Shown here in pieces: positions 2,852 to 46,182 of a stretch of DNA of 64,000 bases. The notes beneath the pieces are model-generated. The model made no database searches. It worked only from the letters and a program-made list of their open reading frames with translations, and had not been told where the DNA came from. Made by a program: the position numbers and the translations under genes. This DNA comes from Burkholderia pseudomultivorans. Its GTDB lineage: Bacteria; Pseudomonadota; Gammaproteobacteria; Burkholderiales; Burkholderiaceae. Within the stretch, counting starts at the first letter, position 1, and each line of letters opens with the position of its first letter. The stretch covers positions 1 to 64,000 of the forward strand of contig NZ_CP013378.1 of assembly GCF_001718415.1 (NCBI RefSeq), written 5' to 3'.

Positions 2852-5518
<2,667 letters not shown>

Positions 5519-5755: not shown

Positions 5756-5815
5756 GTTTGGCCGCCGTCCCGCCCTTAGCAGCGATATTCGCCTGCCCGA
5801 ATCAATCTACGGTAG

Positions 5816-7099: not shown

Positions 7100-7126
7100 C
7101 AGGCACACACTGATAATGCGATGGCA

Positions 7127-7151
7127 AATGCCCGCCCATTGGGTGGGCATT
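7127..7151 (+). terminator. Hairpin after the orphan gene
   Basis: An 11-bp stem (arms 7127-7137 and 7141-7151, one G-T pair) built around AATGCCC/GGGCATT lies 27 bp after the stop of the 248-residue gene. No T-run follows directly; a run of eight T occurs at about 7212-7219. Its role as a terminator is plausible but unproven. Confidence 0.4.
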
Positions 7152-7285
7152 GAAGAGATGGAGCGGGAACATATCGAGGAACAGTGTCCAGCCCGATAAG
7201 CCCCGTTCGCTGTTTTTTTTCGCCGGACATGGGCCGGCTATCGCTGATTTCAAATCAAACGAATAACACTGACCTGCCCCCGGTT

Positions 7286-8335
7286 TTAGTCCGAACCGCA
7301 GTTAGAGTCCGAGGTTAAAAACTGCTGCTTTGCATCGTGCGCCCGCGCGAACTGCACCGGCGTCAGATAGCCGAGTGAACTATGAGGCCGCTCGGTGTTG
7401 TACTCGATACGCCATTCCTCAATCAGCCGCTTGGCGTGGCGCATTGAGACGAACCAGTGCTCGTTCAGGCATTCATCGCGGAACCGCCCGTTGAAGCTCT
7501 CGATATAGGCATTCTCCACCGGCTTGCCAGGCCGAATGAACGACAGCGTGACACCGGCTTCGTAGGCCCATGCATCCAGCACCTTACCAGCGAACTCCGG
7601 CCCGTTGTCGACCGTGATGGATGCGGGTAAGCCTCGCATCTCCTTGAGCCGCTCGAGCACTTGCTGCACTCGTAGGCCCGGCAGCGAAGTATCGACCTCG
7701 ATGGCCAAGCACTCGCGCGTGTAGTCGTCGACCACGTTCAGGCATCGAAACCGCCGACCATAGGCCAGCCCGTCAGAAACGAAGTCCATCGACCAGCTCT
7801 GATTCGGGCCTGTTGCTAACGGCAGCGGCGTGCGCTCGACAGCCGCAATACGCTTGCGTCGCCGCTTGCGCACGCTCAGCCCCGCCTTGCTGTACAGGCG
7901 CCAGATGCGCTTGTGGTTGGCGAAGCAGCCATCCCGCTGCAACAGCACGTGAATCCGGCGATAGCCGTAGCGGCGCTTCTGCGCGGCGATGGCCATCATC
8001 CGGCCAGTCAGCGCTTCGTCATCAACTCGGCGGCGTGATTCGTAGTGGAACAGCGAGCGCGAAATCCCTACCAGCCCGCAGGCCCGGGTAACACCCATGG
8101 CACGTTCGGTCATCAATATCCGGACCGCTTCGCGCTTGGCCTGCGGGCTTGCTACTTTCGAGCCAGCAGGTCCTTCAGCGCGGCGTTGTCGAGCATCGAT
8201 TCGGCTAACAGTCGCTTGAGCTTGCTGTTCTCCTGCTCCAGTTCCTTCAGGCGCTGAGCTTCGGAGACCGTCATCCCGCCGAACTTCGCTTTCCAGTTGT
8301 AGTAGGTCGCTTCCGAGATGCCGTACTTGCGACAC
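7286..8335 (-). CDS. IS3-family transposase OrfB (DDE integrase)
   Basis: Catalytic part of the transposase, made in vivo as an OrfAB fusion by -1 frameshifting. The frame opens at 8335, but meaningful OrfB sequence begins near 8160 with SKVASPQAKREAVRILMTER. An HTH_21-type region is followed by the rve integrase core: the first Asp in WSMDFVSDGL, the second in TVDNGPEFAGK, and the Glu in ENAYIESFNGRFRDECLNEH. The C-terminal YNTERPHSSLGYLTPVQFA is typical of the IS407 group. No frameshift or stop interrupts it, so the element may still be active. Confidence 0.92.
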   Translation of the reverse strand: MSQVRHLGSDLLQLESEVRRDDGLRSSAPEGTGAGEQQAQATVSRIDARQRRAEGPAGSKVASPQAKREAVRILMTERAMGVTRACGLVGISRSLFHYESRRRVDDEALTGRMMAIAAQKRRYGYRRIHVLLQRDGCFANHKRIWRLYSKAGLSVRKRRRKRIAAVERTPLPLATGPNQSWSMDFVSDGLAYGRRFRCLNVVDDYTRECLAIEVDTSLPGLRVQQVLERLKEMRGLPASITVDNGPEFAGKVLDAWAYEAGVTLSFIRPGKPVENAYIESFNGRFRDECLNEHWFVSMRHAKRLIEEWRIEYNTERPHSSLGYLTPVQFARAHDAKQQFLTSDSNCGSD

Positions 8336-8412
8336 AGCTCCGCCGGCTTCAGGCCAGCCTCGGCTTCCTTCAAGATGCCGATGATCTGTTCTTCGGTGAA
8401 TCGCTTTTTCAT
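8152..8412 (-). CDS. IS3-family transposase OrfA
   Basis: The 86-residue N-terminal transposase part. It has a helix-turn-helix (EEQIIGILKEAEAGLKPAEL, then CRKYGISEATYYNWKAKFGG) that recognises the terminal repeats. A leucine-zipper coiled coil (RLKELEQENSKLKRLLAESM) follows. The frame ends at a TAG inside the OrfB reading frame. The junction carries a CGAAAG run where a -1 frameshift would fuse OrfA to OrfB, as known for IS3 elements. Confidence 0.93.
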   Translation of the reverse strand: MKKRFTEEQIIGILKEAEAGLKPAELCRKYGISEATYYNWKAKFGGMTVSEAQRLKELEQENSKLKRLLAESMLDNAALKDLLARK

Positions 8413-8484
8413 TGCCGTTCCTCTCTGGAACGGACTCTACACCGTCACCGTACTAAACGCGGGGAGCAGGTCAACACCCCTACA

Positions 8485-14328: not shown

Positions 14329-14366
14329 GAGGGTTCTCCACGGTTACGCGAATGGTTTGTACAACC

Positions 14367-16508: not shown

Positions 16509-19039
16509 ATTGTTAGTCGTCCATTAAGCCACTGTGTGCGAAAGCGTCCTTCAGATCGCCTTATCAGAGATTCTCTGAATCCGTCTTCCGTGGCCTCTGT
16601 TTTACTTAAAAGAATGCAGCTCGGCAGCAGGCGTGCCAAACCTCTCAAGTCCTCTCTCAATGCGGGGTACACGTAAAGACCATCCATCATTCCCGCGCAT
16701 CGCATAGCTCGACGCCTCAGATCGGCTGCGATGAAATTAGGTAAAGCGCCATCGTTGCTTATTCGTAGAAGTGCGTCGCCCCGTTCTTCGAACAAAGGCA
16801 CCTTCGCGGCAGCATGAGCAGCGGCAATGGCTGCCGTGCGAGAGAGATAGAGAACCCTTCCCGCCGAGCTCGTCACTTCGAAAAGATCGTGGTCCCGCTG
16901 TGCTTTGTGTATGAGGCGAGTCAATGTAGTCGTTCCACGATGTTCCGATCTCTTTAAGAATCGCTTGGCCCCCCAGTCCCAGAAATCTGCAGCTTCATAC
17001 GCAATCGCAATGCGCGGCGTGCTTTGGAATGCGAGCGGCTTCTGCACCGCGCTTTCCGGATCGGGCACGATTGGCCAATCAAGCTGAGCAGCGATATCAG
17101 CAGCCGCAAGGCCAGTTGCACCAATAGTCGGCGGCGCCCACGGTCCTATTCCCAGTCTACGAAAACACGTTCCTCCACGCGCTTCAACGACCAAGCGGAA
17201 TCGATCAACAAGGCGCTCGCATAGCGCGCCTTCGATTTGTACTATCGGATGCTGCGAGGACGGAAGTTCGAGAAGACGTGGAGGAACGAGCGTCCAGCTG
17301 CGTCCACGCCACCCGCCACGTAACCGTGGTTCGATAATTCCACCGTCTCGCAGAATTTGAAGCAAGGACCACGAATTCATCTCATCGCTTGCGCGCGAGA
17401 GCATATGAATGAGGGCAGCTTCCTCCCATCCGGCTGCTCCGCTTGCATACACAGCCTCCAAAAGATCTAAACATTCGAGTGCCCCGTTCTCCCAAAGAAA
17501 CTGTTCGTTCGACTTGATAGGGTGGAGTGGGCGCTTCTCCGACTGCCAATCGTTCAATCTCTCCAGCCGGTACCGACCGCCGTCACAAATGGAATGTGGA
17601 ACGGCTTGGGAGGAGAACGTAAGCCGAAGACTCCAGTCGGAGTGTCTATCTCCATGCTCGGATCCCGGGGATATCGTGAAAGAGCCATCTAGATGGGCGG
17701 CCGACTCGAGTTGTCCGTTCGGAGTCACCTCGAAAGCGCCAGTGGCGTCCTCAGAGCGGATGACATGATGGCGCTTTGAGTCTGATTCAAGGCGAGGCAG
17801 AAATGCTTGCCGCCCCAACCAGCCGACACCGACCCTGATCCCGCCATTCGCAGATGCTCGAAAAACCTGGTCGCTCTTAAACGCAGCGAACCCAGCAGTG
17901 CGTAAGACGTCGATCGCTTTCTGTGCGGCTATCGGCTTGGACGTAAAGATCCAATCCTTTTCTTCGCGCAGATTGCCTAACCGGCCTCCAATCGCACGTC
18001 TATGGCTAGTGGAGACGACCACGATGACCTCGCCCGACACGTCGCGGATTTCGCGATCTAAGGACCAGCGCCCCATTCCAGTGTGTCTAAAAAAAAGTAA
18101 GCCACCCCTGCAGCTGGCCGAAAAATTCGCGCTCTGCGCGGCATTCTCAGCGGTCAGCGCATCATGCAATGTCTGATAGACGCGACCACCATCGTCCTGC
18201 GACGAATCTGCGATATAAATCCGACTCTCGTCTTCCTCATAGAGCATATCAATCTCTACAAGCCTTCGATCTAGTCGGTGCACTTGCGAGCCGACCTCCG
18301 TAATCAATCTCCAGAAACGATGATCAGCAAGCGCGCGCTTTTGCTGAAAATAGGCATGCTCGAACTCGTCGAAAGCCTTAGCCAACCCCCACGAAAGCGT
18401 TTTACCTATGCGAAACCGTTGAAATAGATTGATGGTTGCAAGTGGACTGTCCAGGGCTTGTGGCTGCTCAAGCAGAAAATTCCTGGCCATTCGAGCGTCG
18501 GAACGGTTGGGGAATGACAATCGGCGCGTGTAGCCAATTTGCGTCCAACCACCAGGATCGGGTAAGACCAGTCTTCGGAAACCGTCACCAGCGTTGACGC
18601 GTCGCGCAAGCCATTCCCTCAGCTCCTCCCACATGTCGGCGATGCCTTTGAGCTGCACGAAAGTGTGGTGGGATTCGAGCCATAACGCCAGCCGTTCACG
18701 ATACGCGCCCGCGCTGTGATATTCGCCGTCGAGCAAACTATCGACGAAAAGTGTTGCGGCAAGGTAGACGAAAAAATTCGGTGCCGACGCGCTCGAAAAA
18801 CGTTGCGAGCCGCTTGAAAGCGACTGAACAAATAGATTATCGCGCTGTAATTGCCGCTGGAAAGCAACGGCGACCTCGTCCTCTGCATCTGCTGGAGCGC
18901 CCAGTGCGGCAGCTAAAGTCGCAGGCGTAATTTCAAACGAGCGAATGTCGGTAGATTCGCCCGTAGAGTCGACTCGCAGGAAGTAGTCGACCAGTTCCCT
19001 CTCCCACGCCTCGAACGTGGTTGGTGCGCGCCAAGACAT
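16505..19039 (-). CDS. druF: DruF-like protein, Druantia operon
   Basis: An 844-residue soluble protein with no domain I can name. It starts MSWRAPTTFEAWERELVDYF, is rich in Trp and Arg, and has no signal peptide, membrane segment or Walker motif. It is the first gene of the three-gene minus-strand operon and overlaps druG by 4 bp. Position between a cytosine methyltransferase and druG-druE, together with its length, matches DruF of type II Druantia (druM-druF-druG-druE), where its role is unknown. The ATG at 19039 lacks a strong ribosome binding site. Its upstream region is shared with the divergent RHH-methyltransferase operon, so both may be controlled together. Confidence 0.6.
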   Translation of the reverse strand: MSWRAPTTFEAWERELVDYFLRVDSTGESTDIRSFEITPATLAAALGAPADAEDEVAVAFQRQLQRDNLFVQSLSSGSQRFSSASAPNFFVYLAATLFVDSLLDGEYHSAGAYRERLALWLESHHTFVQLKGIADMWEELREWLARRVNAGDGFRRLVLPDPGGWTQIGYTRRLSFPNRSDARMARNFLLEQPQALDSPLATINLFQRFRIGKTLSWGLAKAFDEFEHAYFQQKRALADHRFWRLITEVGSQVHRLDRRLVEIDMLYEEDESRIYIADSSQDDGGRVYQTLHDALTAENAAQSANFSASCRGGLLFFRHTGMGRWSLDREIRDVSGEVIVVVSTSHRRAIGGRLGNLREEKDWIFTSKPIAAQKAIDVLRTAGFAAFKSDQVFRASANGGIRVGVGWLGRQAFLPRLESDSKRHHVIRSEDATGAFEVTPNGQLESAAHLDGSFTISPGSEHGDRHSDWSLRLTFSSQAVPHSICDGGRYRLERLNDWQSEKRPLHPIKSNEQFLWENGALECLDLLEAVYASGAAGWEEAALIHMLSRASDEMNSWSLLQILRDGGIIEPRLRGGWRGRSWTLVPPRLLELPSSQHPIVQIEGALCERLVDRFRLVVEARGGTCFRRLGIGPWAPPTIGATGLAAADIAAQLDWPIVPDPESAVQKPLAFQSTPRIAIAYEAADFWDWGAKRFLKRSEHRGTTTLTRLIHKAQRDHDLFEVTSSAGRVLYLSRTAAIAAAHAAAKVPLFEERGDALLRISNDGALPNFIAADLRRRAMRCAGMMDGLYVYPALREDLRGLARLLPSCILLSKTEATEDGFRESLIRRSEGRFRTQWLNGRLTI

Positions 19040-19058
19040 GGTCTGTACTTTATCGTTG

Positions 19059-19217
19059 TCAGTGCGCAGGCAATTTACTCACCGGCGTCACCTTTCTGTT
19101 CAATCTAGCTCTAACAAGAGCATTCCCGTACTCGCAAGTGTAAAACCCACCCCCGATAATGTCGACACTGCCCCCAGGGAACTTTAATTGAAAGGAAACG
19201 CGGGCTATCTCTGACAT
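19059..19217 (-). CDS. Possible small protein upstream of druF
   Basis: A 52-codon frame starting ATG at 19217 (MSEIARVSFQLKFPGGSVDI) and ending 19 bp before the druF start. The sequence reads like a small beta-rich protein, but no clear Shine-Dalgarno is visible. The same frame continues upstream to 19469 with less natural composition. It could be a leader peptide, a small component of the defence operon, a remnant, or chance. The stretch 19218-19550 otherwise shows no gene I can support. Confidence 0.3.
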   Translation of the reverse strand: MSEIARVSFQLKFPGGSVDIIGGGFYTCEYGNALVRARLNRKVTPVSKLPAH

Positions 19218-19591
19218 CGCGAAGGCGACCTGCCCAGATCCGGTACGCTGCCAGAATCCGCGCGATTCGCCTTGGCCTGACTCAGCCGCCGACTCCGGTG
19301 GAGTAGCAATGAAACTCAGGCTGCCAACGTCGGACTTAGTGCTGGCTTGTGGAGAGCACCTACAGTAGTGTCTTGGCGCTGGATCGGTACAGCGGCAGCG
19401 GCTGGGCTTGCGGTAGATCGAGCAAACACCGCGGACAGGATAGTGCGCCAACCGATTAGATGACACCACTCACCCCAGCTTCGTCTGCCGACACGCCAAC
19501 AAGCTGGCACAGCGAGAACGAATGTACGGCGCTGGCCGACAGCGCTTGGCTTTGCGGTGACGCAACGCCATATCACGATTTCGCTGACTTT

Positions 19592-19639
19592 TACAATATT
19601 CTCTTTTGCGGTGCGCCAGAATGGCGCCACAATGGCGCC
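19592..19639 (+). promoter_or_regulatory. Promoter and operator-like repeats of the RHH-methyltransferase operon
   Basis: A -10-like TACAAT at 19592-19597 has no good -35 partner. Downstream, AATGGCGCC occurs twice, at 19620-19628 and 19631-19639. The two copies are 11 bp apart start to start, each contains the palindrome GGCGCC, and the second lies directly before the ATG of the RHH gene. Ribbon-helix-helix repressors typically bind short repeats one helical turn apart, so this is a likely autoregulatory operator. Binding is inference. Confidence 0.5.
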
Positions 19640-19640
19640 T

Positions 19641-19850
19641 ATGATGAAAACCGCCAAAGACTCGCGCGCCAAGACGGAGCGCATCACAGTGCGCCTGCCC
19701 AACGACATGCTTGCAGCGATCGACGTCGAGTGTTCTCGGCGCATCGGCAACGTGTCACGCAACACCTGGATACTCGAAGCGGTCCAGGAAAAGTTGTCGC
19801 GCGCTTGCGGCGGTGCAATCCAACAATCAGATGCCGCGAGGGGAAACTAA
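19641..19850 (+). CDS. Ribbon-helix-helix (CopG/Arc-type) DNA-binding protein
   Basis: A 69-residue protein with the RHH pattern TERITVRLPNDMLAAIDVEC followed by two helices (RIGNVSRNTWILEAVQEKLS). In this fold the strand binds the DNA groove and the helices dimerise. In-frame ATGs lie at 19632, 19641 and 19644; 19641 is an arbitrary choice. Its TAA and the methyltransferase ATG share one base (TAATG), so the two are translationally coupled. By position it is the likely regulator of the methyltransferase-nuclease operon, a role similar to the C proteins of restriction systems but with a different fold. It may also affect the divergent druFGE operon. Confidence 0.8.
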   Translation: MMKTAKDSRAKTERITVRLPNDMLAAIDVECSRRIGNVSRNTWILEAVQEKLSRACGGAIQQSDAARGN

Positions 19851-21007
19851 TGGGTCGTTTCTACGAGTTCTTCGCCGGCGGGGGAATGGCCCGCGCCGGC
19901 CTTGGCGAGGGTTGGCAGTGCCTCTTCGCTAACGACTTTGATCACAAGAAAGGCATCACGTATCGCCAAAACTGGGGCGAGGGCGAACTGCTGACCGGCG
20001 ACGTACGCCACGTAAAACCGGAAAACCTCCCCGGCCGCGCGAACCTCATCTGGGGTTCGTTTCCGTGCCAAGACCTGTCGCTGGCCGGCGCGGGCGCGGG
20101 CCTGAAAGGAGATCGCTCGGGTACGTTCTGGCCGTTCTTCGATGTCGTGAAAGGCTTAATCGCGGACAATCGCGCGCCCGACATCATCGCGCTGGAAAAC
20201 GTTGTAGGTACGCTGCATTCGCACGAGGGCAAGGACTTCGCGGCGATCTGTACGGCGCTCGACCGCGCCGGCTACCGGTTCGGCGCGATGGTGATCGACG
20301 CCGCACTGTTCGTGCCACAGTCGCGCCCTCGCCTGTTCGTCATTGGCATCCGCAAGGACCTGCCAATTCCTGACAGGCTCGTCCAGCCAGATGCCTCGCC
20401 GCTATATCACCCGAAAGCATTGCTAACGGCGCTGGACAAACTAACGGCTAAGGCGCGACAGAACTGGATTTGGTGGCACCTGCCCGCACCCGAGAGCCGT
20501 GAAACCGTGTTTGCAGACCTGATCGAGGAGAACCCAACCGGCGTCACGTGGCACACCACGGCGGAAACGCAAAGGCTGCTGGCGATGATGAGCGATGTCA
20601 ACCTGGCCAAGGTCGAGAAAGCAAAGAAGGCGTCGAAGTCCACCGGCCGGCGCATGGTCGGCGCGATCTATCGGCGCACCCGGCGCGACGAGGAAGGCAA
20701 CAAGGTGCAGCGCGCCGAAGTCCGTTTCGACGACGTGGCCGGTTGCCTGCGTACGCCCTCCGGCGGCTCAAGCCGGCAATTGATTATGGTAATTGACGGC
20801 AATAAGGTGCGCACGCGGCTGATTTCCAGCCGAGAAACGGCGCGGCTGATGGGGCTGCGCGACGAATACGTGCTGCCCGAGAACTACAATGAGGCGTACC
20901 ACTTGACCGGCGACGGTGTGGCGGTTCCTGTCGTTCGACACATCGCGAAGAATATCTTCGAGCCGATCTTGGCCATTCAACCGCCGCTGGCAAAGGCTGC
21001 AGCATGA
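19850..21007 (+). CDS. DNA (cytosine-5-)-methyltransferase
   Basis: 385-residue C5 cytosine methyltransferase. Motif I is FYEFFAGGGMARAGL at the N-terminus, motif IV is GSFPCQDLSLAG with the catalytic Cys at 73, motif VI is ENV at 116-118, and motif VIII is QSRPRLFVIG. The C-terminal motifs IX-X are present (VAGCLRTPSGGSSRQ; YHLTGDGVAVPVVRHIAKNI). It is coupled to the RHH gene upstream (TAATG) and to the nuclease gene downstream (ATGA). It may be the modification enzyme of a type II restriction system formed with the next gene, the DruM methylase of type II Druantia, or both; the sequence alone does not decide. The longer frame from 19460 has no supported start. Confidence 0.93.
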   Translation: MGRFYEFFAGGGMARAGLGEGWQCLFANDFDHKKGITYRQNWGEGELLTGDVRHVKPENLPGRANLIWGSFPCQDLSLAGAGAGLKGDRSGTFWPFFDVVKGLIADNRAPDIIALENVVGTLHSHEGKDFAAICTALDRAGYRFGAMVIDAALFVPQSRPRLFVIGIRKDLPIPDRLVQPDASPLYHPKALLTALDKLTAKARQNWIWWHLPAPESRETVFADLIEENPTGVTWHTTAETQRLLAMMSDVNLAKVEKAKKASKSTGRRMVGAIYRRTRRDEEGNKVQRAEVRFDDVAGCLRTPSGGSSRQLIMVIDGNKVRTRLISSRETARLMGLRDEYVLPENYNEAYHLTGDGVAVPVVRHIAKNIFEPILAIQPPLAKAAA

Positions 21008-21861
21008 GCATCGTTCCATGCGAGCAAAACGGTAAGCTACGCACCTTGATCGAAAAGTACGCCGAAGACCTGAAGACCGAGGCCCATAAGATTGGCAATC
21101 ACGGTCTTTCAGAGGTCGAGTTCTACAATAGCGGCGTATTTCGTGGGGCGATTGAGCGGGTCCGTGGTCAGTTCTCCGCGTCGATGCGCGAAAAGCGCGA
21201 GTTCGTGCAGCACATTCTGAATCACATGCAGGACAACGGATTCGTCACCGATTGGGAGTCGGCGGGCGAGGCCAACCGACACGATTACATTGTGCGCTTG
21301 CCGACCGGTCGAACGGCCGCGATCGAGTTGAAGGGCTGCCTGGACGGCAACAACACGAACATTTTCGAACGGCCGCCTCAGGCGGAAGAGTTCGTAATTT
21401 GGAGCGTGTGCACGAACCCGGGCGCAGACCCTCGGCACAACGCTTGGTCGGGCATCCACACACGGTTGAGCGCGGAAATCATCCACCGCGAACAACGCGT
21501 TGACGGCGTGATCCTTTGGGACATGGTGTGCGGGACGGTCGGCCGTCCCTGCCCGAAGGTCGAAGGCGATCCGACTCGCTTGACCGCCGCAGGTCCGTTC
21601 GCGGTACCACCGCCCTGCATCTACGTACTGCCCTCGACGATACCGAGTCCGCGTAACAACCCGCATCCGAAGGCGCAGCGCTTGCAGGACGTTCAACTCT
21701 TAAAAGCGTTCCACGAGTGCTTCAAAGCGAACGACAACGAGGTGAACTACGTCGATTTTGAGGTCGGCTATCAAGGTACCGACACCGTTCGCAAAACGCG
21801 GGTAATGCGCAATGGAGAAATCCAGCGTGAGTCGGAAGCGACCGCGATCCGCCGGGGCTGA
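21004..21861 (+). CDS. Putative type II restriction endonuclease, PD-(D/E)XK fold
   Basis: A 285-residue protein. The stretch HDYIVRLPTGRTAAIELKG supplies the D (94), E (108) and K (110) of a PD-(D/E)XK active site, with spacing D-x13-E-x-K typical of restriction enzymes. I do not recognise the specificity. The gene overlaps the methyltransferase stop by 4 bp and the vsr gene by 50 bp, forming a tight M-R-V cassette. In known systems a Vsr gene beside a C5 methylase repairs T:G mismatches arising from methylcytosine deamination, so the target probably contains a methylated cytosine. Nuclease function is inferred from the motif and the context. Confidence 0.8.
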   Translation: MSIVPCEQNGKLRTLIEKYAEDLKTEAHKIGNHGLSEVEFYNSGVFRGAIERVRGQFSASMREKREFVQHILNHMQDNGFVTDWESAGEANRHDYIVRLPTGRTAAIELKGCLDGNNTNIFERPPQAEEFVIWSVCTNPGADPRHNAWSGIHTRLSAEIIHREQRVDGVILWDMVCGTVGRPCPKVEGDPTRLTAAGPFAVPPPCIYVLPSTIPSPRNNPHPKAQRLQDVQLLKAFHECFKANDNEVNYVDFEVGYQGTDTVRKTRVMRNGEIQRESEATAIRRG

Positions 21862-22267
21862 CGAAACGCCCGCAGTCTTACGGTCCCGCACCATGCGTGC
21901 CGTGAAATCGAAGGACACCGGCGCCGAGATGATCGTGCGCCGGTTCCTCCACGCCGCCGGTCTGCGGTACCGCCTCCACGACCGACGCTTGCCGGGGAAG
22001 CCTGACCTGGTGTTCCCGCGCCGCCGTATCGCTCTGTTTGTTCACGGATGTTTCTGGCATCAGCACCCGAACTGCCCGGCGGCCGCCCGCCCGAAATCGA
22101 ATTCCGACTATTGGACCCGAAAACTGGACGGCAATGTTGTACGCGACGCTCGTCACCTCGACGCGCTAAAAGCGGCAGGCTGGACTGTTTTGATCATCTG
22201 GGAATGCGAAACCCGCGACCAGAAGGCACTTAACGCAGTGCTGAAGCGGATAGCCCCATCAGTCTGA
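21812..22267 (+). CDS. vsr: Very short patch repair endonuclease Vsr
   Basis: A 151-residue Vsr protein that nicks next to T in T:G mismatches produced by deamination of 5-methylcytosine. Seen here are the N-terminal RSRTMRAVKSKDTGAEMIVR, the catalytic Asp in LPGKPDLVFP (D65), and the signature FVHGCFWHQHPNCP with the metal/His residues. The ATG at 21812 lies inside the nuclease gene (50-bp overlap); a later in-frame start at codon 28 (TMRAVKSKD) would shorten the tail before the conserved core. It closes the RHH-M-R-V operon and protects the genome from the mutagenic effect of the methylase. Confidence 0.95.
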   Translation: MEKSSVSRKRPRSAGADETPAVLRSRTMRAVKSKDTGAEMIVRRFLHAAGLRYRLHDRRLPGKPDLVFPRRRIALFVHGCFWHQHPNCPAAARPKSNSDYWTRKLDGNVVRDARHLDALKAAGWTVLIIWECETRDQKALNAVLKRIAPSV

Positions 22268-22341
22268 TGCTAATTGTCCGCTCGGCCGTCTCATTGACCG
22301 ACGCCACTCCGCCGTCACCGGAACCTCTGTGTGGCCGCAAC

Positions 22342-23049
22342 TCATTTCCGGTTGCCGGATCCCGCGATCCTTAGCCTGTCTCGATATCGGCTGTCCCGCA
22401 TTCGGATCGAATCGAACCATTCCTCCCGCTCTTCACCGTTTAAGTATGCAGCGGTCGACGTCCGACAACGGTCGATAAAAGCATCTTGCTCGATCGAGCT
22501 GAGACTCTCCCAATACCGATCCCACACATTCACATACCAATACTGCGCATCGCCCTGCAGATTGAATGTCAATGGCCCGAGCTCGTACCAAGCAATCCAC
22601 GGCGGTGGCGGATTGAATACGAACGCGGACACCGAGCGAACAAGCTCGACATCGTTCGTCAGCAAACTGACTTGCTTGCCAGAATGGCGGTCGACAGCGG
22701 AAAAGAAGGTGTGAAGCAATCCGTCTCGTACGAACTGGCGGGGGCCTACTCGTTCCCTGCCCTTGATCACGAGATTGACGTAGATGGGAAACTGCTCGAC
22801 CTCGACATCCTGCGTCACGTAGAAGGCGCTCACCCCAAGTTCTCCAATCCATGCCGCGCCGGGATAGTCGGGAAACGACTCCGATCGAAGTGCCTCCGGC
22901 GTCTCCGCGAACACCGCGCGCACATACGCCAGATCCGTCTCAAAAATCCGCTCGATTGCCTGCTGTCGATGCTTGGACAGATCGTGCGATGCACGCCGGA
23001 GTCGGCGCGCATCCACGAAAACGTCAAACAGCCTCTTCAAGGTCGACAT
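22342..23049 (-). CDS. Hypothetical protein, accessory island
   Basis: Not recognised. 235 residues, starting MSTLKRLFDVFVDARRLRRA, preceded by GAGGAG about 6 bp before the ATG. It is soluble in appearance, rich in Trp/Tyr, with the proline run FNPPPPWIAWYELGPL and a C-terminal helix containing EEREEWFDSIRMRDSRYRDR. No signal peptide or catalytic motif is evident. It is convergent with the vsr operon and transcribed away from the SymE-like gene. It may be a contact-system immunity or other cargo protein of the island, but nothing in the sequence shows this. Confidence 0.75.
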   Translation of the reverse strand: MSTLKRLFDVFVDARRLRRASHDLSKHRQQAIERIFETDLAYVRAVFAETPEALRSESFPDYPGAAWIGELGVSAFYVTQDVEVEQFPIYVNLVIKGRERVGPRQFVRDGLLHTFFSAVDRHSGKQVSLLTNDVELVRSVSAFVFNPPPPWIAWYELGPLTFNLQGDAQYWYVNVWDRYWESLSSIEQDAFIDRCRTSTAAYLNGEEREEWFDSIRMRDSRYRDRLRIAGSGNRK

Positions 23050-31378: not shown

Positions 31379-31897
31379 ATGCCCTCCACCGCCCCCGACG
31401 ACGACGCGTTACGCGAACTCATCCCGAGGCTGCGACGCTTCGCGCTCTGGCTGGCGCGCGACGTGCACGCGGCCGACGATCTCGTGCAGTCGACGCTCGA
31501 GCGCGCGCTGTTGCGCTGGGCGAGCCGCCGCGACGACGCATCGCTGCGCAGCTGGCTCTTCACGATCCTTTATCGTCAGTTCCTCGACGGCAAACGCAGC
31601 GCGAAACGCTACGCATGGCTGCTCGGCCGCATCCGCGACGACGACGAACCGCACTGGCCGTCCGCCGAACGCGAGGTGGCCGCGCGCGCGACGCTCGAAG
31701 CGTTCGGCCGCCTGCCCAACGAGCAGCGCAGCCTGCTGCTGCTGATCGCGGTCGAGGGCTTTACCTATCAGGAAGCCGCCGATCTGCTCGAGGTGCCGAT
31801 CGGCACCGTGATGTCGCGCCTGTCCCGTGCGCGCCAGGCGCTGCGCCTGCTCAGCGACGGCGAGCTTCCCGCTCCTTCCCTGCGATTGATGAAATGA
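31379..31897 (+). CDS. ECF-family RNA polymerase sigma factor
   Basis: A 172-residue sigma-70 group 4 factor. Region 2 is FALWLARDVHAADDLVQSTL plus LRSWLFTILYRQFLDGKR; region 4 is LPNEQRSLLLLIAVEGFTYQ then EAADLLEVPIGTVMSRLSRA. It reads the GGAATAA/CGTC promoters at this locus, controlling the catalase-cytochrome operon and itself. The pairing of an ECF factor with SrpA-like catalase and cytochrome b561 is a recurring arrangement in proteobacteria, probably for oxidative stress. No ribosome binding site is obvious before the ATG at 31379. It overlaps the anti-sigma gene by 4 bp. Confidence 0.93.
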   Translation: MPSTAPDDDALRELIPRLRRFALWLARDVHAADDLVQSTLERALLRWASRRDDASLRSWLFTILYRQFLDGKRSAKRYAWLLGRIRDDDEPHWPSAEREVAARATLEAFGRLPNEQRSLLLLIAVEGFTYQEAADLLEVPIGTVMSRLSRARQALRLLSDGELPAPSLRLMK

Positions 31898-32649
31898 ACA
31901 TCCCTCCCGACGAACACGACCTCCACGCCTACGTCGACGGCCAGCTCGACGACGACGCGCGCGCCGCGGTCGAGCGCTATCTCGCGCTGCATCCGGAAAG
32001 CGCGGAACAGGTGAAACGCTGGCAGCAGGATGCGCAGCGCTTGCGGGCCGCGCTGGCGAGCATGCAGATGCCGGAGGACAACCCCGCGCTCGATCCGGCG
32101 GCGATTCGTGCGCGGCGCGCGGAACGCACGCGGATGCGGTTCGCGATGGCCGCATCCTTCGTGTTCTGCATCGGGCTGGGGACGTTCGGCGGATGGCAGG
32201 CGCGCGGCTGGAACGCGCCGGCGGCCGTCGCGCCGATGAGCGATGCGGTCGAGGCGTACAAGATGCTGGTCGTCGATCGCGCCGCGAAGGTCGATTTCCG
32301 GCCGACGAGTGCGGCGGAATTGCAGACCTGGCTCACCCGACGCGTCGGCGCATCGGCGATGCTGCCGGATTTGAGCGCCGCGGGATTCAGGCCGATTGGC
32401 GCGCGACTGTTCGCGACCGAACGCGGGGCCGCCGCGATGGTGCTGTATCAGGACGACGCGGGGCGCACGCTGAGCTTCTATCTCCGCCCGCCCGAATCCG
32501 CGCATCGGTTGCTGGCGGCCGGCGAACGCGTCGACGGCGCCCTGCTCGCGCGGTATGGATCGTTGCGCGGGCTCAACTATGCAGTGGTCGGGCCCGCGGA
32601 TAGTCTCGCGGAAAAGGCCGTCGCGCGTGTGCTCGACGAGCAGACGTAG
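31894..32649 (+). CDS. Transmembrane anti-sigma factor
   Basis: 251 residues. The cytoplasmic N-terminus (DEHDLHAYVDGQLDDDARAA then VERYLALHPES) has the H-x-x-x-x-x-D pattern of anti-sigma domains but lacks the HxxxCxxC zinc motif. One transmembrane helix follows at about 80-97 (FAMAASFVFCIGLGTFGG), then a periplasmic sensor part of about 150 residues. The ATG overlaps the sigma stop (ATGA), coupling the two. It should hold the sigma factor inactive until a signal, probably oxidative, is sensed outside the membrane; the signal is inference. It is the last gene before the origin-like repeats. Confidence 0.9.
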   Translation: MNIPPDEHDLHAYVDGQLDDDARAAVERYLALHPESAEQVKRWQQDAQRLRAALASMQMPEDNPALDPAAIRARRAERTRMRFAMAASFVFCIGLGTFGGWQARGWNAPAAVAPMSDAVEAYKMLVVDRAAKVDFRPTSAAELQTWLTRRVGASAMLPDLSAAGFRPIGARLFATERGAAAMVLYQDDAGRTLSFYLRPPESAHRLLAAGERVDGALLARYGSLRGLNYAVVGPADSLAEKAVARVLDEQT

Positions 32650-32727
32650 GTGACAGGATGCGCGGCCGCGTCGGGGCCCGTGAGGCGATTGTGCGCGCCT
32701 CAGGCGACGGGGCTCACCATCGAAACG

Positions 32728-33442
32728 CACAGCGTTTGGAGTGAATTGGGTGGCCTGTTATCCACATCAGGGGAACCGGGTCGCGCTCCGGTCGAAGGCC
32801 GGCGCCCTCACCTTTGGCGTGCACAGCATTTCGATTCGTTTTTGGCGGTGGATGTCCACACCGAAAACGTCGGCTCGATGCTATCGTTCGCAGCCGATCA
32901 CGTTCAGGGGTCGAAGCTCACAGCGTTTCCGGTCGTTTGAGGTTGGGAATATCCACAACGTTTCCTTCCTTTTCTGCCTCGTTCGCGCCCTCTCACTCAT
33001 CAGGCGCACAGCGTTTCGAGTGAGTTGATCGCCACGATATCCACATCGAAACCGTCGAGGCCATCGATCGCCACGAGTCGAATGAACGCTCGCTGCCAGT
33101 CCGCGAAAAGCCCCGAAACACGGGCCTCACGGCGCAACGAAGCCACTCGCGGACGGAAGGCTCACCCTGCAAATGCACAGCATCGCGAGTGGTTTTCGAA
33201 TCGATTTATCCACATTTTTTCCAACAGGTCATTTCGTTCGAAGACCTGAATTTGCGCGACCGGTCTGCATCGTCGAACCCATACAGCGCTCTCCGCGAAT
33301 CGCGCCGGCCACGACACAGCGTTTTCGACCGGTTTGCGCGCGCTTTTCCACACCCGCCCGGCACACGCGAAAGCGTCTCACCGACGTCCCGAAACAGCGC
33401 GGTTCACAGCATTCACGCAGTTTTCCGTGCCGGACGTCCACA
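32728..33442 (+). repeat. Seven composite repeats: CACAGC motif plus a DnaA-box-like sequence 29-30 bp downstream
   Basis: Units start at 32728, 32822, 32919, 33007, 33176, 33315 and 33405. Each begins CACAGC(G/A)T, with the first 20 bases approximating CACAGCGTTTCGAGTGGTTT. A box-like 9-mer follows at a fixed distance: 30 bp in the first five units and 29 bp in the last two. The 9-mers are TTATCCACA (32758, 33206), ATATCCACA (32949, 33037), TTTTCCACA (33344), ATGTCCACA (32852) and ACGTCCACA (33434). All are on the plus strand, mostly 85-97 bp apart. The ten bases before the 9-mer are not conserved. The fixed spacing indicates that a second protein, or a second DnaA contact, recognises the first motif. 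Confidence 0.85.
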
Positions 33443-33469
33443 GCTCGTTCGTCGCTTCGCCACTGCACG

Positions 33470-34576: not shown

Positions 34577-34697
34577 GAATCGCCTCGCACTTGGCAGCAA
34601 TGCTCGCGATTCTACAAACGTTCCGGCGAAGCCGGTCCATACGACGGGATGTGGCGGACGTCTTCTTCCTGCCCGCATCACAGTCGCGAGACTGTGC

Positions 34698-34984
34698 TTA
34701 TCCAAAGGTGTTAACAGAGAACGTATATATACGTAGTAACAGTTAACAAGACCTGTGCGTCACAGTGGATAACCTCGTTAACCGGCTGAAAAATCAATGC
34801 GATGCGAAACGCACAACCTGGCTCGACTCGCGTGCACAGCTTGCGGATGCGTCGAACAACTTTTCCGTGAATTTCGGGGCCGCACAGATATCCTCAATCG
34901 TTCCACTGTGAATCCAGAAGCTTGCGAGACGGTTATCCATAGGCGCGTGTGGATAACTCCGTCGCACACAGCGGCGACGCTGTG
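34698..34984. promoter_or_regulatory. Right DnaA-box cluster with AT-rich unwinding-like element
   Basis: DnaA-box-like sites: TTATCCAAA 34698-34706 (+), TTATCCACT 34764-34772 (-), TTATCCATA 34933-34941 (+) and a perfect TTATCCACA 34948-34956 (-). Between the first two is an AT-rich stretch with GTTAAC at 34710, 34742 and 34777 and the palindrome ACGTATATATACGT at 34721-34734. A CACAGCG-GCGA-CGCTGTG palindrome spans 34967-34984. Read on the minus strand, its CACAGC lies 28 bp before the perfect box, echoing the left-array unit. The AT-rich block resembles a DNA unwinding element in otherwise GC-rich DNA. Confidence 0.65.
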
Positions 34985-41140: not shown

Positions 41141-44100
41141 CTAGCGCCCCGCGCCCGTCATCGCCGCAGGGTCGAACAATGCCCCGGCATTCCCGACCCG
41201 CACGAACCGCGCCGCGTCTTCACCGTCCGCCAGCGCGCGGAAATGCGCTTCGCCGCAGGCGAGCTTCGCACGCTCGTGCTCGCTCGGCACATGGCCGTCC
41301 GCGTTCGGCGTATCGACGACGAAGTACAGCCGTTCGCCGCCCTCCTGCTCGGCGAGCACCGCCCAGTCCGGGTGATAGCTGCCGAGCGGCGTCGCGATGC
41401 GGAACCACGCAGGCAGCTTCGCGTAAAGCTTCACGCCGTCGTGCGCCTCGAGCGCATCGGCGAACGCGCGCTCCGCGTCCGTCTCGCACACCACGGCTTC
41501 GTGGATCGACTTGCGCGCATCGAGCCGCAGGTTGCGCAGATAGCCGGTCAGCGCCTCGCTCTCGAACGATTCGAGCGCATGCAAGTGGCGCTCGCCGAGC
41601 TTGCGGTACGCGATGCCCGCGACGAGCGCGAGCCGCTTGCAGCGGTTGATCGCATCGGCGGCGAGCGCGATGAACTGCTGCGGATTCACGCGGAAGTCGT
41701 CGAGCCGGCCGCTGTCCGCGAGGATCGTTGCGAGCGAGCGGCGCGTGAGCTGCGTGCGGTCCTGCAGCTCGGTGAGCAGGTCGGGCAGCGGCAGCTCGCC
41801 TTCGTCGATCAGCACGGTGCCGGCGCCCGCGACCTCGATCGCCTCGACGCCGGCCTTGCCGATGTCGATCTCGGCCTTGCGCCACTGCAGCCGCGCGCGC
41901 GCGATCTCCGGCGCGTCGCGCAGCGCGGCCGTGCAGTCGCGCACGAGCTTCGCATTGTCGAATTCCACGCTGTACACGGTGCGGTGACGGATGCGATCCC
42001 ACAGCGCGCGGAAGTCGTCGCCGAACACGACGGCCTTGCCGGATGCATCGCGCCGCAGCGCGATCGCGCGGCGCTCGTCGGCGTTGCGCACCGCGAAGCG
42101 GCCCGACAGCTTGCGCAGCGTCGCGACGATCGGTGCGCGCAGCGTCTCGAATGCTTCCGGCAGCACGAGCGCGCTTTGCCGCAACGCGTCCTTCAGCCGG
42201 TCGAGCACCTTGCCCTGCGCGTCGACGTAGCCTTGTTCGTGCAGATGCGTCCACAGCACGCGCGACAACTCGATACCGAGCGCATGCGCGGGCCCGTCGC
42301 CTTCCTGCACGGGCAGCGCCGCGAACTGGTGTTCCTCGACGATGCCGAAACGGATGCCCGTGTCGGCCTCGATTTCCTTCTGCAGGTTCTCCGCGAACGA
42401 TTCGTAGCGCTCGGTCGCGATCACGGTGAGCGTGTTGACGCCCGGGTCGCGCACGCGTTCGCCGTCCTGGTCGACCGCGAGACGCAGCCCGCGGCCGAGC
42501 GTCTGGCGACGCTCGCGCTCGGTCTGGATGTCGCGCAGTGTGCAGATCTGGAACACGTTCGGGTTGTCCCAGCCTTCCTTCAGCGCCGAGTGCGAGAAGA
42601 TGAACTTCAGCGGCGTGTCGAACGACAGCAGCGCTTCCTTCTCGCGCATGATCAGCCCGTACGCGCGCTCCGCGTTCTCGCGGGCCGCCGCGCTGCTTTC
42701 GCTGGTGTCGGTCCAGCCGCCCTTGCGGTCGATCGAGAAGTAGCCGTTGTGTGCGCGCTCGACCTCGCGCGCGATGTCGACGCCGTCGAACAGCGCGCGA
42801 TAGGCCGGCACGCGCGCCGCGCGCGCATATTCCTCTTCGAAGATCAGCGCGTAGTCGCCCTTCACCGGCATCCCGTTCTCGTCGTAGCGGCGATAGCGCT
42901 CGACCGAATCGACGAAGAACAGCGACAGCACCTTCACGCCGCGTTCGGCGAGGCGCAGTTCCTTGTCGAGATGCTCGCGGATCGTGCGGCGGATCATCTC
43001 GCGCTGCACGGCGAGCGTGTCGATGTCGCCGAACGCCTCGCCGAGCGACAGGAACGCCTCGCCTTCCGGATGCCGCAGCTCGACGTATTCGGCGCCCTTT
43101 ACCGCATGCACCTCGCCGATCCGCAGCCCCGCGTACAGCGCGCGCTTGGTCAACCGTTCGAGATCGTCGCCGTCGGTCGCCGACACGATCTGGCGCTTCA
43201 CGCCGGCGCTCGTCGCGACGTCGAGTTCGACGCGCGCGCTGATCGAACCGCGCCGGTTCGACACGCCGACGAGCCGCACGTACGGCTTGTTGTGCGCATC
43301 CTCGACGATCGCCGACGCGATCTCGATCTGCTTGACGAGCTTGCGCTCGTACGCGTCGACCGCGTCGAGCCGGTACACCATGTGGTGACGGTCGACGTGC
43401 GTGGCCGAGTAGCGCAGCGTGCAGAGCGGGTCCATCGCGGCCAGCGCTTCGCGCCCGCGACCTTCGAGCCCGCCGTCGACGCTTTGCGGCTCGTCGACGA
43501 TCACGATCGGCCGCGTCGCGCGGATCAGGTCGATCGGCTTCTCGCCGCCGGTCTTCTCGCTGTCCTTGTAGAGGTTGTTGACCTCGCGCTTGTTGATCGC
43601 GGCGACGGTCATCACCATGATCTGGATCGCCGCGCTCGCGGCGAAGTGGCGCACCTGGCCGAGCTTCGCGGAGTCGTACAGGAAGTAGTCGTACGGCACG
43701 CCTGCGTACAGCGCGCGGAAATGGTCCTCGGTGATCGCGAGCGTCTTGTGCACGCCTTCCTTGATCGCGATCGACGGCACGACGATCACGAACTTCGTGA
43801 AGCCGTAGCGCCGGTTCAACTCGAAGATCGTGCGCAGGTAGACGTAGGTCTTGCCGGTGCCGGTCTCCATCTCGACGGTGAAGTCGCGCGAGCCGGGCAG
43901 GCCGGACGGCGGCAGGCCGCCGCGCAGCTGCACGTCGGCGAGATTGCGCGCGAGCGCGTCCTCGGTCAGCGACAGCCGGTTGCCGACGCCCTGTTCCGAC
44001 ACCGCGAAGCCGAGCGAGCCCTGCGCGGCGGCCGTCGTGCCCGGCGCGGCATTGGCGAGCACGCTGAAGTCGCCGCGATACGATTCCTGGCCGCGAAACA

Positions 44101-44164
44101 GGTCGCAGACGGCGTCGATCGCGTCGCGCTGGTAGTCGAGGTCCGCTTCGAAATGCAGCCGCAT
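41141..44164 (-). CDS. res: Type III restriction subunit Res (helicase/nuclease)
   Basis: 1007 residues. ATP-dependent DNA sliding/cleavage subunit that works with Mod. The SF2 helicase core has Walker A METGTGKTYV, motif II VIVDEPQSVDG (DEPQ) and motif VI TLGRGLRLAVDQ. The C-terminal nuclease domain has the PD of YHPDWAVLAEQ and then LYFVVDTPNADG, where family members usually have an E-T-K type motif. Here the catalytic Lys is replaced by Pro (codons 41314-41303). Cleavage may therefore be lost although the frame is intact. The start ATG overlaps the mod stop (TGATG). A much longer open frame runs upstream in the same phase but is a shadow of mod. Confidence 0.9.
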   Translation of the reverse strand: MRLHFEADLDYQRDAIDAVCDLFRGQESYRGDFSVLANAAPGTTAAAQGSLGFAVSEQGVGNRLSLTEDALARNLADVQLRGGLPPSGLPGSRDFTVEMETGTGKTYVYLRTIFELNRRYGFTKFVIVVPSIAIKEGVHKTLAITEDHFRALYAGVPYDYFLYDSAKLGQVRHFAASAAIQIMVMTVAAINKREVNNLYKDSEKTGGEKPIDLIRATRPIVIVDEPQSVDGGLEGRGREALAAMDPLCTLRYSATHVDRHHMVYRLDAVDAYERKLVKQIEIASAIVEDAHNKPYVRLVGVSNRRGSISARVELDVATSAGVKRQIVSATDGDDLERLTKRALYAGLRIGEVHAVKGAEYVELRHPEGEAFLSLGEAFGDIDTLAVQREMIRRTIREHLDKELRLAERGVKVLSLFFVDSVERYRRYDENGMPVKGDYALIFEEEYARAARVPAYRALFDGVDIAREVERAHNGYFSIDRKGGWTDTSESSAAARENAERAYGLIMREKEALLSFDTPLKFIFSHSALKEGWDNPNVFQICTLRDIQTERERRQTLGRGLRLAVDQDGERVRDPGVNTLTVIATERYESFAENLQKEIEADTGIRFGIVEEHQFAALPVQEGDGPAHALGIELSRVLWTHLHEQGYVDAQGKVLDRLKDALRQSALVLPEAFETLRAPIVATLRKLSGRFAVRNADERRAIALRRDASGKAVVFGDDFRALWDRIRHRTVYSVEFDNAKLVRDCTAALRDAPEIARARLQWRKAEIDIGKAGVEAIEVAGAGTVLIDEGELPLPDLLTELQDRTQLTRRSLATILADSGRLDDFRVNPQQFIALAADAINRCKRLALVAGIAYRKLGERHLHALESFESEALTGYLRNLRLDARKSIHEAVVCETDAERAFADALEAHDGVKLYAKLPAWFRIATPLGSYHPDWAVLAEQEGGERLYFVVDTPNADGHVPSEHERAKLACGEAHFRALADGEDAARFVRVGNAGALFDPAAMTGAGR

Positions 44165-46182
44165 CACAGGCTCCGCACGCGCTTCACGCCGTGCTGTTCG
44201 AGCAGCGCGGCGAGATTGAGCTTCGCGACGTCGTCGACGAAGCCGCTGTCGCGGAACAGGCACGTGACGTCGCGCGTCGCGCCGGTCGCGTCGAGCAGCG
44301 CGACGATGCCGTCGGCGAGCGGCTCGGCGTCGTCGCGCGACACGCGCGCGTCGAAGCACGCGACGATCGAGCGGCCGATCAGGTGCACGGTCTTGCCGGC
44401 CACCGCGTGATGCTCGACCGGCGTGCACAGGTCGAGGCCGAGCTTGAGCGTCAGCTCGGCGAGCAGGTCGTCGTCGGTGCGGCCGGTCTTCACGTGCTCG
44501 ACGGACGCGAACAGCGCGTGGTCGAAGTCGTCGCGGCGCGGATCCCACTCGATCACGTTGGTCGTGTCGAGCCGGTACACGCGAAAACCGAGGTCGCCAT
44601 AGCTTTCCGGATAGTCGCGCGCGACCTGCTGCGCGGCGCGGCGCAGCCGTTCCTTGGTCACTTCCGCGAGCGTCAGCGGCTTTTTCAGCTTCGCGCAGAA
44701 GTCGGCCGCGCCCTGTTGCGTCTTGTCGCGGCGGTCGAGCGCCTCGGGCAGTTGCACCATGATGTAGCGGCGCGCGCCGCCGTCGGTCGCGTTGACCTGC
44801 ATCACCGCGTGGCCGGTCGAGCCGGAGCCCGCGAAGCAGTCGAGCACGATGTCGTCGCCGCGCGTGCACCAGCCGATCACGGCCGCCGCGAAGTCGACCG
44901 GCTTCGGCTGCTCGAACGGAATGCCGAGCGTCTTCAGCAGCGCGTCGTCCGAGCCGCCGAACGGCAGCACCGACGGCACGTTCTCGTACATGTTCTCGTC
45001 GAGGTAGTAGATGCGCTGCGGCTGCGTGGTCTCGTCCGCGCCGAATTCGATCTGGCCGCGTTCGAGCAGCGCCTGCATCGTCGCCGGCGGATTGCGCCAG
45101 CCGCGTGCCGGCATCGCGCACGGCTTGCCGGTGACCGGGTGGATCAGCGGCGTGAAATATTCTTCCGGCGCCTTCTTCTTGTTCGGCCACGCCATCGAGA
45201 CGAGGCGGTACACGCGCCCGTCTTCCGACAGCCGGTCGTACATCGCCTCGCCGCCCGACAGGTTGGTCTGCGCCTTCATCCACGCGCGGAACGCCTTCGC
45301 GGCATCCTTCGGCGTGCCGCTGCGGTACATCGCGTCGCGCGCGGCGTCGAGCATGCGCTGCGCGTTGCGCTTCGGGCGCTTCAGCGGCGCGCGTTCGAGC
45401 AGCGTCTCGGCATTGCGCGCGAACAGCACCAGCGATTCGTGCTGGTACGCGATGCCGCGTGCGTCGCCCTTCGGGTTGCGCTTGTCCCACACCGCGACGC
45501 CGAGCTCGTTCTCCTCGCCGAAGATCTCGCGCAGCATCAGCACCAGCGCGTGCACTTCGTGCTCGTCGATGTGCACGACGATCAGCCCTTCGTCGGACAG
45601 CAGCGCGTGCGCGAGCTTCAGGCGCGGGTACATCATGTTCAGCCAGTCGGTATGAAACCGGCCGTTCGCCTCGGTGTTGGTGCTGCGCTTCACGCCGCCT
45701 TCGGTCTGCCCCGTCATCGCGAGGTAGTGGCGGATGCTGTCGCTGAAGTCGTCCGGGTACACGAAGTCGCTGCCGGTGTTGTACGGCGGATCGATGTAGA
45801 CCAGCTTCACCTTGCCCGCGTAGCTCTTGTGCAGCAGCTTCATCACGTCGAGGTTGTCGCCCTCGATCACGAGGTGGCGCGTGTCGTCCCATGCGACGCT
45901 GTCTTCGGGGCAGGGCCGCAGCGTGCCCGTCGACGGCGTGAGCGCGGCCTGGCGCGCGTCGCGCTTGCCGTGCCAGTGGAAGCCATAGCGTTCTTCGGCA
46001 TCGCCGACCGTGCGGTCGCCCACCAGCGCCTTCAGCACGTCGACGTCGACCGACGCGCCTTGCGGGCCTTCGGTCACGAGTTCGGGGAACAGCGCCTTCA
46101 GGCGCGCGACGTTGTCGGCGGTGAAATCGGTCGACATCGCCTGCGGGCTGGCCGCATCGAGTTTCTGCATCGTCTTTTCCAT
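44164..46182 (-). CDS. mod: Type III restriction-modification DNA adenine methyltransferase Mod
   Basis: 672 residues. An N6-adenine methyltransferase of the beta class: catalytic DPPY at 131-134 comes before the SAM motif (VLDCFAGSGSTGHAVM), with a target-recognition region between them. Mod methylates one strand of an asymmetric site and guides Res. The start is either 46182 or an ATG 4 codons later; neither has a strong Shine-Dalgarno. No simple-sequence repeat that could cause phase variation is visible in the 5' end. GC content is like the chromosome, unlike the Druantia island, so this system may be older in the lineage. Confidence 0.93.
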   Translation of the reverse strand: MEKTMQKLDAASPQAMSTDFTADNVARLKALFPELVTEGPQGASVDVDVLKALVGDRTVGDAEERYGFHWHGKRDARQAALTPSTGTLRPCPEDSVAWDDTRHLVIEGDNLDVMKLLHKSYAGKVKLVYIDPPYNTGSDFVYPDDFSDSIRHYLAMTGQTEGGVKRSTNTEANGRFHTDWLNMMYPRLKLAHALLSDEGLIVVHIDEHEVHALVLMLREIFGEENELGVAVWDKRNPKGDARGIAYQHESLVLFARNAETLLERAPLKRPKRNAQRMLDAARDAMYRSGTPKDAAKAFRAWMKAQTNLSGGEAMYDRLSEDGRVYRLVSMAWPNKKKAPEEYFTPLIHPVTGKPCAMPARGWRNPPATMQALLERGQIEFGADETTQPQRIYYLDENMYENVPSVLPFGGSDDALLKTLGIPFEQPKPVDFAAAVIGWCTRGDDIVLDCFAGSGSTGHAVMQVNATDGGARRYIMVQLPEALDRRDKTQQGAADFCAKLKKPLTLAEVTKERLRRAAQQVARDYPESYGDLGFRVYRLDTTNVIEWDPRRDDFDHALFASVEHVKTGRTDDDLLAELTLKLGLDLCTPVEHHAVAGKTVHLIGRSIVACFDARVSRDDAEPLADGIVALLDATGATRDVTCLFRDSGFVDDVAKLNLAALLEQHGVKRVRSL

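Follow-up and report, generated by a model that had tools for sequence, protein, structure and literature searches.

A repeated three-part unit with a CACAG methylation motif and a DnaA-box-like sequence in two chromosome 1 arrays of Burkholderia pseudomultivorans

In Escherichia coli, datA, DARS1 and DARS2 are clusters of DnaA boxes that lie outside oriC, at conserved distances, and take part in the control of initiation. The distance of crtS, a site on Vibrio chromosome 1, from oriC scales with the sizes of the chromosomes. Where several chromosomes have to be timed, the mechanism is known for Vibrio, which uses crtS, and for Agrobacterium, in which it works by methylation, and other timers are still to be identified, according to a 2026 survey (PMC13342612). 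For multi-chromosome Burkholderia, the question of coupling was posed in 2016 and left open by Du et al. (PMC4948915), who also left the origin of chromosome 1 (c1) open, mentioning a DnaA-box cluster near nucleotide 1 and a skew minimum. In the case of B. cenocepacia, the type III enzyme BCAL3494 places m6A at the fourth base of CACAG on just the forward strand, BCAM0992 methylates GTWWAC, and the origins are rich in CACAG, which is also contained in the 7-mer of Du et al. (PMC7364216). In this study, we describe a locus of B. pseudomultivorans in which CACAG and a DnaA-box-like sequence recur together at fixed spacing, along with a third motif, at some distance from the likely origin.

Architecture of the unit

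The window, that is, the whole stretch of DNA analysed, covers the first 64000 bases of contig G000:C2, which is 4.85 Mb long and begins at dnaA. This contig is longer than chromosome 1 of relatives (3.3-3.9 Mb), and the GC skew of stretches sampled between 1.0 and 3.25 Mb flips sign several times; the contig may include a fused second replicon, or may be misassembled. From the start, dnaA-dnaN-gyrB (recognised by eye) are followed by an island and by an rRNA operon on the minus strand (23.9-29.1 kb), and cytochrome b561 and catalase-like genes lie between this operon and an ECF sigma factor gene. The island (5500-23000, gyrB to rRNA operon), which carries a C5 DNA methylase, a Vsr endonuclease, a 1947-aa DEAD helicase and an IS3-like transposase (also recognised by eye), is perhaps a defence island. 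The array under study, array 1, stands behind an anti-sigma-like gene whose product has an NCBIfam match below the curated cut-off and no Pfam match, and is 100% identical over 251 residues to a protein in a B. pseudomultivorans record (L188), which places the host in the Burkholderia cepacia complex. The array is followed by two ORFs that match no family, by an AT-rich element (about 34.7 kb) and by a tRNA-Val gene (35.1 kb).

31379..31897, plus strand: ECF sigma factor gene, upstream of array 1
31894..32649, plus strand: anti-sigma-like gene, upstream of array 1; served to find homologous regions in relatives
32650..33469: stretch with array 1, between the end of the anti-sigma-like gene (32649) and a convergent ORF
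32728..32766, plus strand: unit 1, beginning CACAGCGTTTGG; box TTATCCACA at +30; CTCACC at -15
32822..32860, plus strand: unit 2, beginning CACAGCATTTCG; box ATGTCCACA at +30; CTCACC at -15
32919..32957, plus strand: unit 3, beginning CACAGCGTTTCC; box ATATCCACA at +30; without CTCACC
33007..33045, plus strand: unit 4, beginning CACAGCGTTTCGAGT; box ATATCCACA at +30; CTCACT at -15
33176..33214, plus strand: unit 5, beginning CACAGCATCGCGAGT; box TTATCCACA at +30; CTCACC at -15
33315..33352, plus strand: unit 6, beginning CACAGCGTTTTCGA; box TTTTCCACA at +29; without CTCACC
33405..33442, plus strand: unit 7 (weak), beginning CACAGCATTC; box ACGTCCACA at +29, 3 mismatches; without CTCACC

The original prediction had listed seven CACAGC units, each followed at fixed distance by a box-like 9-mer, and both its start positions (32728 to 33405) and its spacings (30 bp in five units, 29 bp in those at 33315 and 33405) proved exact. 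The boxes differ from TTATCCACA at 0, 2, 1, 1, 0, 1 and 3 positions in units 1 to 7, those of units 2 and 7 being weak. Between 32650 and 33469, CACAG stands 29/30 bp ahead of a box with no more than one mismatch five times, and other spacings from 10 to 60 bp yield no such pair; 2000 dinucleotide shuffles of the intergenic stretch gave 0 pairs at 29/30 bp. All eight CACAG between 32701 and 33500 are on the plus strand, and the 800-base windows richest in one-strand CACAG within the 464 kb around the origin lie at array 1 and at two origin-like elements, A and B, described below.

The unit has a third part, overlooked at first: CTCACC, located 15 bp before CACAG. It is exact in units 1, 2 and 5, reads CTCACT in unit 4 and is absent in units 3, 6 and 7. 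Among units whose CACAG is 29/30 bp away from a box with no more than one mismatch, CTCACC stands exactly at -15 in 73 of 129 array-1 units, with 8 more at -14, and in 79 of the 85 units taken from the second array (see below) of 10 genomes. The full unit is thus CTCACC, 15 bp, CACAGCGTTTCGAGT, 29/30 bp, (T/A)TATCCACA. Across 30 homologous regions the CACAG motif reads TGCACAGCGTTTCGAGTGGTTT and the box (T/A)T(A/G)TCCACA, a consensus (W-T-R-T-C-C-A-C-A) that fits DnaA boxes. The earlier idea of a fixed composite site stands in that at least two recognition parts are present and conserved in relatives, but CACAG does not have to be a separate protein site, given that an m6A methyltransferase of Burkholderia is known to target it (PMC7364216). 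The further proposal that both parts face the same side of the DNA is not supported: 29/30 bp amounts to a non-integral number of turns between like parts (34 or 35 bp from CACA to CACA).

Second array, origin-like elements and distribution among relatives

Frequent recurrence of the unit elsewhere in the chromosome had been named beforehand as grounds for rejecting the interpretation. This objection applies in part: the unit does recur, in a second array at a distance from dnaA of about 250 kb, assuming a circular contig, and otherwise in a few stray matches. Array 2, which the original prediction missed (C2 4597495-4599423), comprises 12 of the 21 matches of the unit model in the own genome (E<=1), three of the 12 being partial; six others are in array 1, one is in element A and two are isolated, and all 21 are on C2, the chromosome 1 contig. 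Nine own array-2 units have a box of at most one mismatch, and eight of these boxes are ATATCCACA, one base off the consensus, so that strong binding of DnaA is not assured. The array is flanked by an ior-type gene on one side and by a glutathione S-transferase-like gene on the other (both recognised by eye). At 17 loci, made up of second arrays, solitary hits and a single hit in an outgroup, both strands together hold 111 boxes, with CACA at -30 in 75 cases and at -29 in 18. In genome G077, array 2 (L239:5071-6570) contains 13 CACAG units in 1500 bases with a period of 88-93 bp, and 11 of these have a box; such a regular tandem repeat of 88-89 bp offers a chance to watch the turnover of units. 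At the end of array 2, an AT-rich palindrome-like sequence, ATAACTAGTTAT, is found at L168:14695-14745 and near record position 786310 of L180.

Both isolated matches are on C2, at 2161285 and 1372034. The former, with counterparts in five further genomes, was considered as a third, solitary unit and rejected, as it is without CTCACC in all six and in G000, the only one translated, lies inside a long, aminotransferase-like open frame. Single CACAG-29-box units at like positions were seen at G000:C2:108739 (minus strand), G016:C2:109145 and G017:C1:111459; that of G000 is located between two parS sites. This unit is possibly a further member outside the arrays.

Of the two origin-like elements, A stands beside array 1.

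34690..34984, minus strand: origin-like element A, with box-like sites, an AT-rich block, TTGTTAACTGTTACTACGTA, GTWWAC and one CACAG unit
C2:81470-81730 and 84544, outside the window: further origin-like sites, with element B at 81689

Element A has DnaA-box-like sites at 34698(+), 34764(-), 34933(+) and 34948(-), TTGTTAACTGTTACTACGTA at 34730-34749(-), GTWWAC at 34710, 34742 and 34777, and one CACAG-28-box unit at 34948-34984(-). Element B (C2:81689, plus strand) lies behind an mnmC-like gene. In an alignment of 25 copies from 11 genomes, a 20-base element, TTGTTAACTnnTACTACGTA, is preceded by a DnaA box and followed by an AT-rich run, and in both A and B we take the repeats beside it to be trio-like. 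With up to two mismatches, this 20-mer is present in 61/61 genus genomes (twice in 54, three times in 3 and once in 4). A and B are usually in opposite orientation and tens of kb apart; in G006, G034, G076, G030 and G033 there is instead a pair of copies 2.86 kb apart, with a third, more distant copy in the first three of these. GTWWAC occurs 62 times in the 464 kb, three times in element A and four times in element B.

Cumulative GC skew, computed over fetched stretches of 120-464 kb, reaches its lowest point 2.5-3.2 kb right of element B (which is at about 81.7 kb in the own genome) in 8/8 genomes. This agrees with Du et al., who mention the skew minimum (PMC4948915). oriC is therefore probably near element B, where the skew turns, and array 1 is about 49 kb away from the likely origin; that the array itself might be an origin, as the original prediction had entertained, is not supported. 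Array 2 keeps its place relative to the origin, at 336 +/- 22 kb from element B in 13 genomes that have both on one contig (484 kb in G001 and 840 kb in G008), distances that are measured from approximate array midpoints. Array 1 is kept behind the anti-sigma-like gene in relatives.

In order to follow array 1 across relatives, 30 homologous regions (own included) were found with the anti-sigma-like protein and read with the box, allowing up to one mismatch, as the only anchor. CACAG precedes 129 of the 133 plus-strand boxes at -29 (67) or -30 (62), as expected if the spacing is conserved in related genomes, with two further CACAG at other offsets up to 60 bp upstream; of the four minus-strand boxes, one has CACAG at -30. 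Units are present in 29/30 regions, the exception being a 4.3 kb contig (L014). When 40 named loci were searched with a unit model (E<=0.05), 31 had at least three hits, all of them titled Burkholderia, and Burkholderia sp. Ac-20379 (L221) had a single weak one. The eight loci without a hit at this threshold are a 4.3 kb contig of B. multivorans (L212), Burkholderia sp. lig30 (L217, with a protein 75% identical), a record titled Enterobacterales (L220) and five Pseudomonas records.

Genome-wide searches delimit the distribution further. With a three-part model (E<=0.01, stricter filters), 36 of 41 genus genomes have 12-23 matches, G006 has one weak match, and none was found in G014, G030, G033 and G034, G014 being the most contaminated and fragmented among the genomes without matches. 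With a two-part model, 120 family genomes from 25 genera gave ten Burkholderia with 12-16 matches, each at both places (which are on separate contigs in draft genomes), a single match in each of two genomes outside Burkholderia, and no match in G006. A laxer search (E<=1) returned 23 matches in G062, three each in G033, G069 and G082 (two of those in G082 near its origin-like element), one each in G006 (at element B) and G030, and none in G034, G076, G067 and G080. No array was seen in the 1500 bases beside the ior gene in G006, G034, G076, G030, G033, G067, G080, G082 and G069, a distance that misses farther arrays such as that of G025, where array 2 begins 3.3 kb away. Some Burkholderia genomes have the same kind of origin elements but neither array and, going by the titles of the matching records, the arrays are lineage-limited and mark the cepacia group.

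Possible roles of the arrays

The window also encodes a candidate for the enzyme that would methylate CACAG.

41141..44164, minus strand: type III Res subunit, partner of Mod
44164..46182, minus strand: type III Mod (N6_N4_Mtase), candidate CACAG methyltransferase, fitting the description of BCAL3494

This pair lies 8-13 kb from array 1, between the two origin-like elements, and fits the published description of BCAL3494/BCAL3493, of which it may be the orthologue. Its region is syntenic in G006 too.

We propose, with a probability of roughly 0.45, that array 1 is one of two lineage-limited, non-origin arrays of DnaA boxes on the main chromosome, which act as a control locus in the manner of datA/DARS. 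Within the unit, the 9-mer would be a DnaA box, CACAG an m6A site and CTCACC the site of a partner, together with which the arrays would bind DnaA. Since methylation is on one strand only and all the CACAG of the array are on the plus strand, replication of the array would leave one sister methylated and the other with unmethylated CACAG; the changed methylation could alter binding and so adjust the DnaA available or active at oriC. Several observations argue for such a role: the three-part geometry is kept while the linkers diverge, there are two arrays at conserved places, and these clusters of DnaA boxes are outside oriC as placed by GC skew and sequence. On the other hand, CTCACC is exact in only 3/7 units of the window and in little more than half of the array-1 units (73/129), there are genomes with the same origin elements but neither array, and initiation at c1 is also ParA-dependent (PMC4948915).

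CTCACC might instead be bound by RepA, the initiator of chromosome 2, so that the arrays would hold or remodel RepA and DnaA in a methylation-dependent manner and the passage of the c1 fork would license chromosome 2; we regard this as unlikely, although worth serious attention. A shade more doubtful is that the two c1 arrays form a replication-coupling device outside Vibrio, made of a RepA half-site, a one-strand m6A site and a DnaA box, in which the splitting of the sisters signals to chromosome 2. CTCACC is the second half of the chromosome 2 iteron ctCCCGAAAAacCTCACCTtt given by Du et al. (PMC4948915), and the match of this half to the unit in a position weight matrix was reached by 0/1000 column shuffles for both arrays; however, it is only 6 bp long and was compared after the iteron had been read. 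The other half, CCCGAAAA, is unmatched (P 0.31 and 0.36 in column shuffles for the two arrays), and the whole iteron reaches only P 0.063 (array 1) and 0.010 (array 2), with a matrix from 29 sites at six loci that are not all chromosome 2 origins. TTTCGAG of the unit was tried as the counterpart of that other half and set aside, the similarity being not significant in column shuffles.

The iteron pattern CCCGAAAANNCTCACC, with up to one mismatch, has 20-35 matches in each of 10 genomes, for six of which the positions are listed, and controls have 0-3. A crtS-like site should be present wherever the same chromosome 2 iterons occur, yet G006, G034, G076, G067 and G082 have this iteron pattern without the array, with at most three weak matches of the unit each and none beside the ior gene. 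The composition speaks in favour (PMC6090056, PMC11711613): crtS of Vibrio acts via the chromosome 2 initiator and contains a putative DnaA box along with GATC sites for methylation (PMC6090056), and the arrays, to which all unit matches in the own genome but three belong and which like those three are on chromosome 1, combine DnaA boxes with CACAG, known as a methylation site from PMC7364216. Outside chromosome 1, six iteron-bearing loci, not all of which are chromosome 2 origins, have three boxes, none with CACAG within 60 bp. Hi-C data of B. cepacia, in which the ori of Chr2 makes contacts with much of Chr1 (PMC13342612), and the remark of Du et al. that an analogous mechanism is worth exploring (PMC4948915) also favour a link between the chromosomes. 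Against it, the distance of array 2 from oriC does not scale with chromosome sizes, as (L1-L2)/2 would require (r -0.43, P 0.15, 13 genomes). This comparison uses approximate array midpoints and takes chromosome 2 by size except in G016, G017 and G025, where the listed iterons identify it; G020, whose chromosome 2 is not clear, G000, whose C2 seems to carry more than a single replicon, and G081, in which array 2 was not located, were left out, and G001 and G008 are listed but outside the correlation.

That array 1 and element A (34.7-35.0 kb) together form an origin, whether the true oriC or a second, auxiliary one, is improbable. With 5 boxes in 1 kb, against 4 in element A, array 1 is the densest cluster of DnaA boxes across 464 kb of own sequence, element A has a box followed by the 20-mer and an AT-rich block, as does element B, and that 20-mer is found throughout the genus, mostly twice; the minus-strand rRNA operon suits an origin to its right, A and B alike. 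Nevertheless, the skew minimum lies 2.5-3.2 kb right of element B in all eight genomes, the distance between array 1 and element A varies (about 1.3 kb in G000 and about 9 kb in G081), and G067 and G080 have both elements with no match to the array model. Between A and B the skew is low (-0.005 to -0.013 in seven genomes), but so it is (-0.008) in the 60 kb to the left of B in G006, where A is missing; the idea that A and B are origins of equal activity, prompted by this flat skew, lacks support for the same reason.

Just as improbable is that the units are operators of a transcription factor or nucleoid protein with no part in replication, or that turnover maintains them as a tandem repeat: the regular repeat of G077 implies that unequal exchange does spread units, but in most of the genomes looked at the linkers have diverged while motifs and spacing are kept, and CACAG, GTWWAC and DnaA boxes also mark the origin elements.

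Comparison with known systems

DnaA boxes and the 7-mer are already known at the c1 origin region, and Du et al. may already have drawn some boxes of the array in their S1 Fig map. A search of open-access papers, supplementary files excluded, turned up neither the three-part unit nor its fixed spacing nor the paired arrays. Array 1 represents a small, exact and deletable DNA target in a group with several chromosomes. Even if it only tunes DnaA, a one-strand methylation site and a DnaA box at fixed spacing would constitute a form of initiation control absent from the papers searched.

The oriC region of B. cenocepacia chromosome 1 resembles the present locus in its DnaA boxes, its AT-rich block and the 7-mer CTGTGCA (PMC4948915), whose reverse complement, TGCACAG, is the core of many units. 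Unlike here, 7-, 9- and 10-mers of unknown significance are reported there, and the covered parts of that paper name neither a three-part unit nor a second array. With the BCAL3494 system the locus shares the enrichment of CACAG at origins together with DnaA boxes; however, in that system CACAG is described within the 7-mer and where DnaA boxes have their 3' end (PMC7364216), whereas in the arrays it stands 29/30 bp before the box. Like crtS, the arrays lie on chromosome 1 and combine methylation sites with DnaA boxes, and they may carry a site for the chromosome 2 initiator. As compared with crtS, we find arrays of 7 and 9-12 units rather than one short site, CACAG rather than GATC, absence from genomes with the same chromosome 2 iterons, and no size scaling. 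From datA and DARS the arrays differ in being built of a three-part unit with a putative m6A site; they have in common with them the clustering of DnaA boxes outside oriC at conserved distances and, as we propose, a role in the control of initiation.
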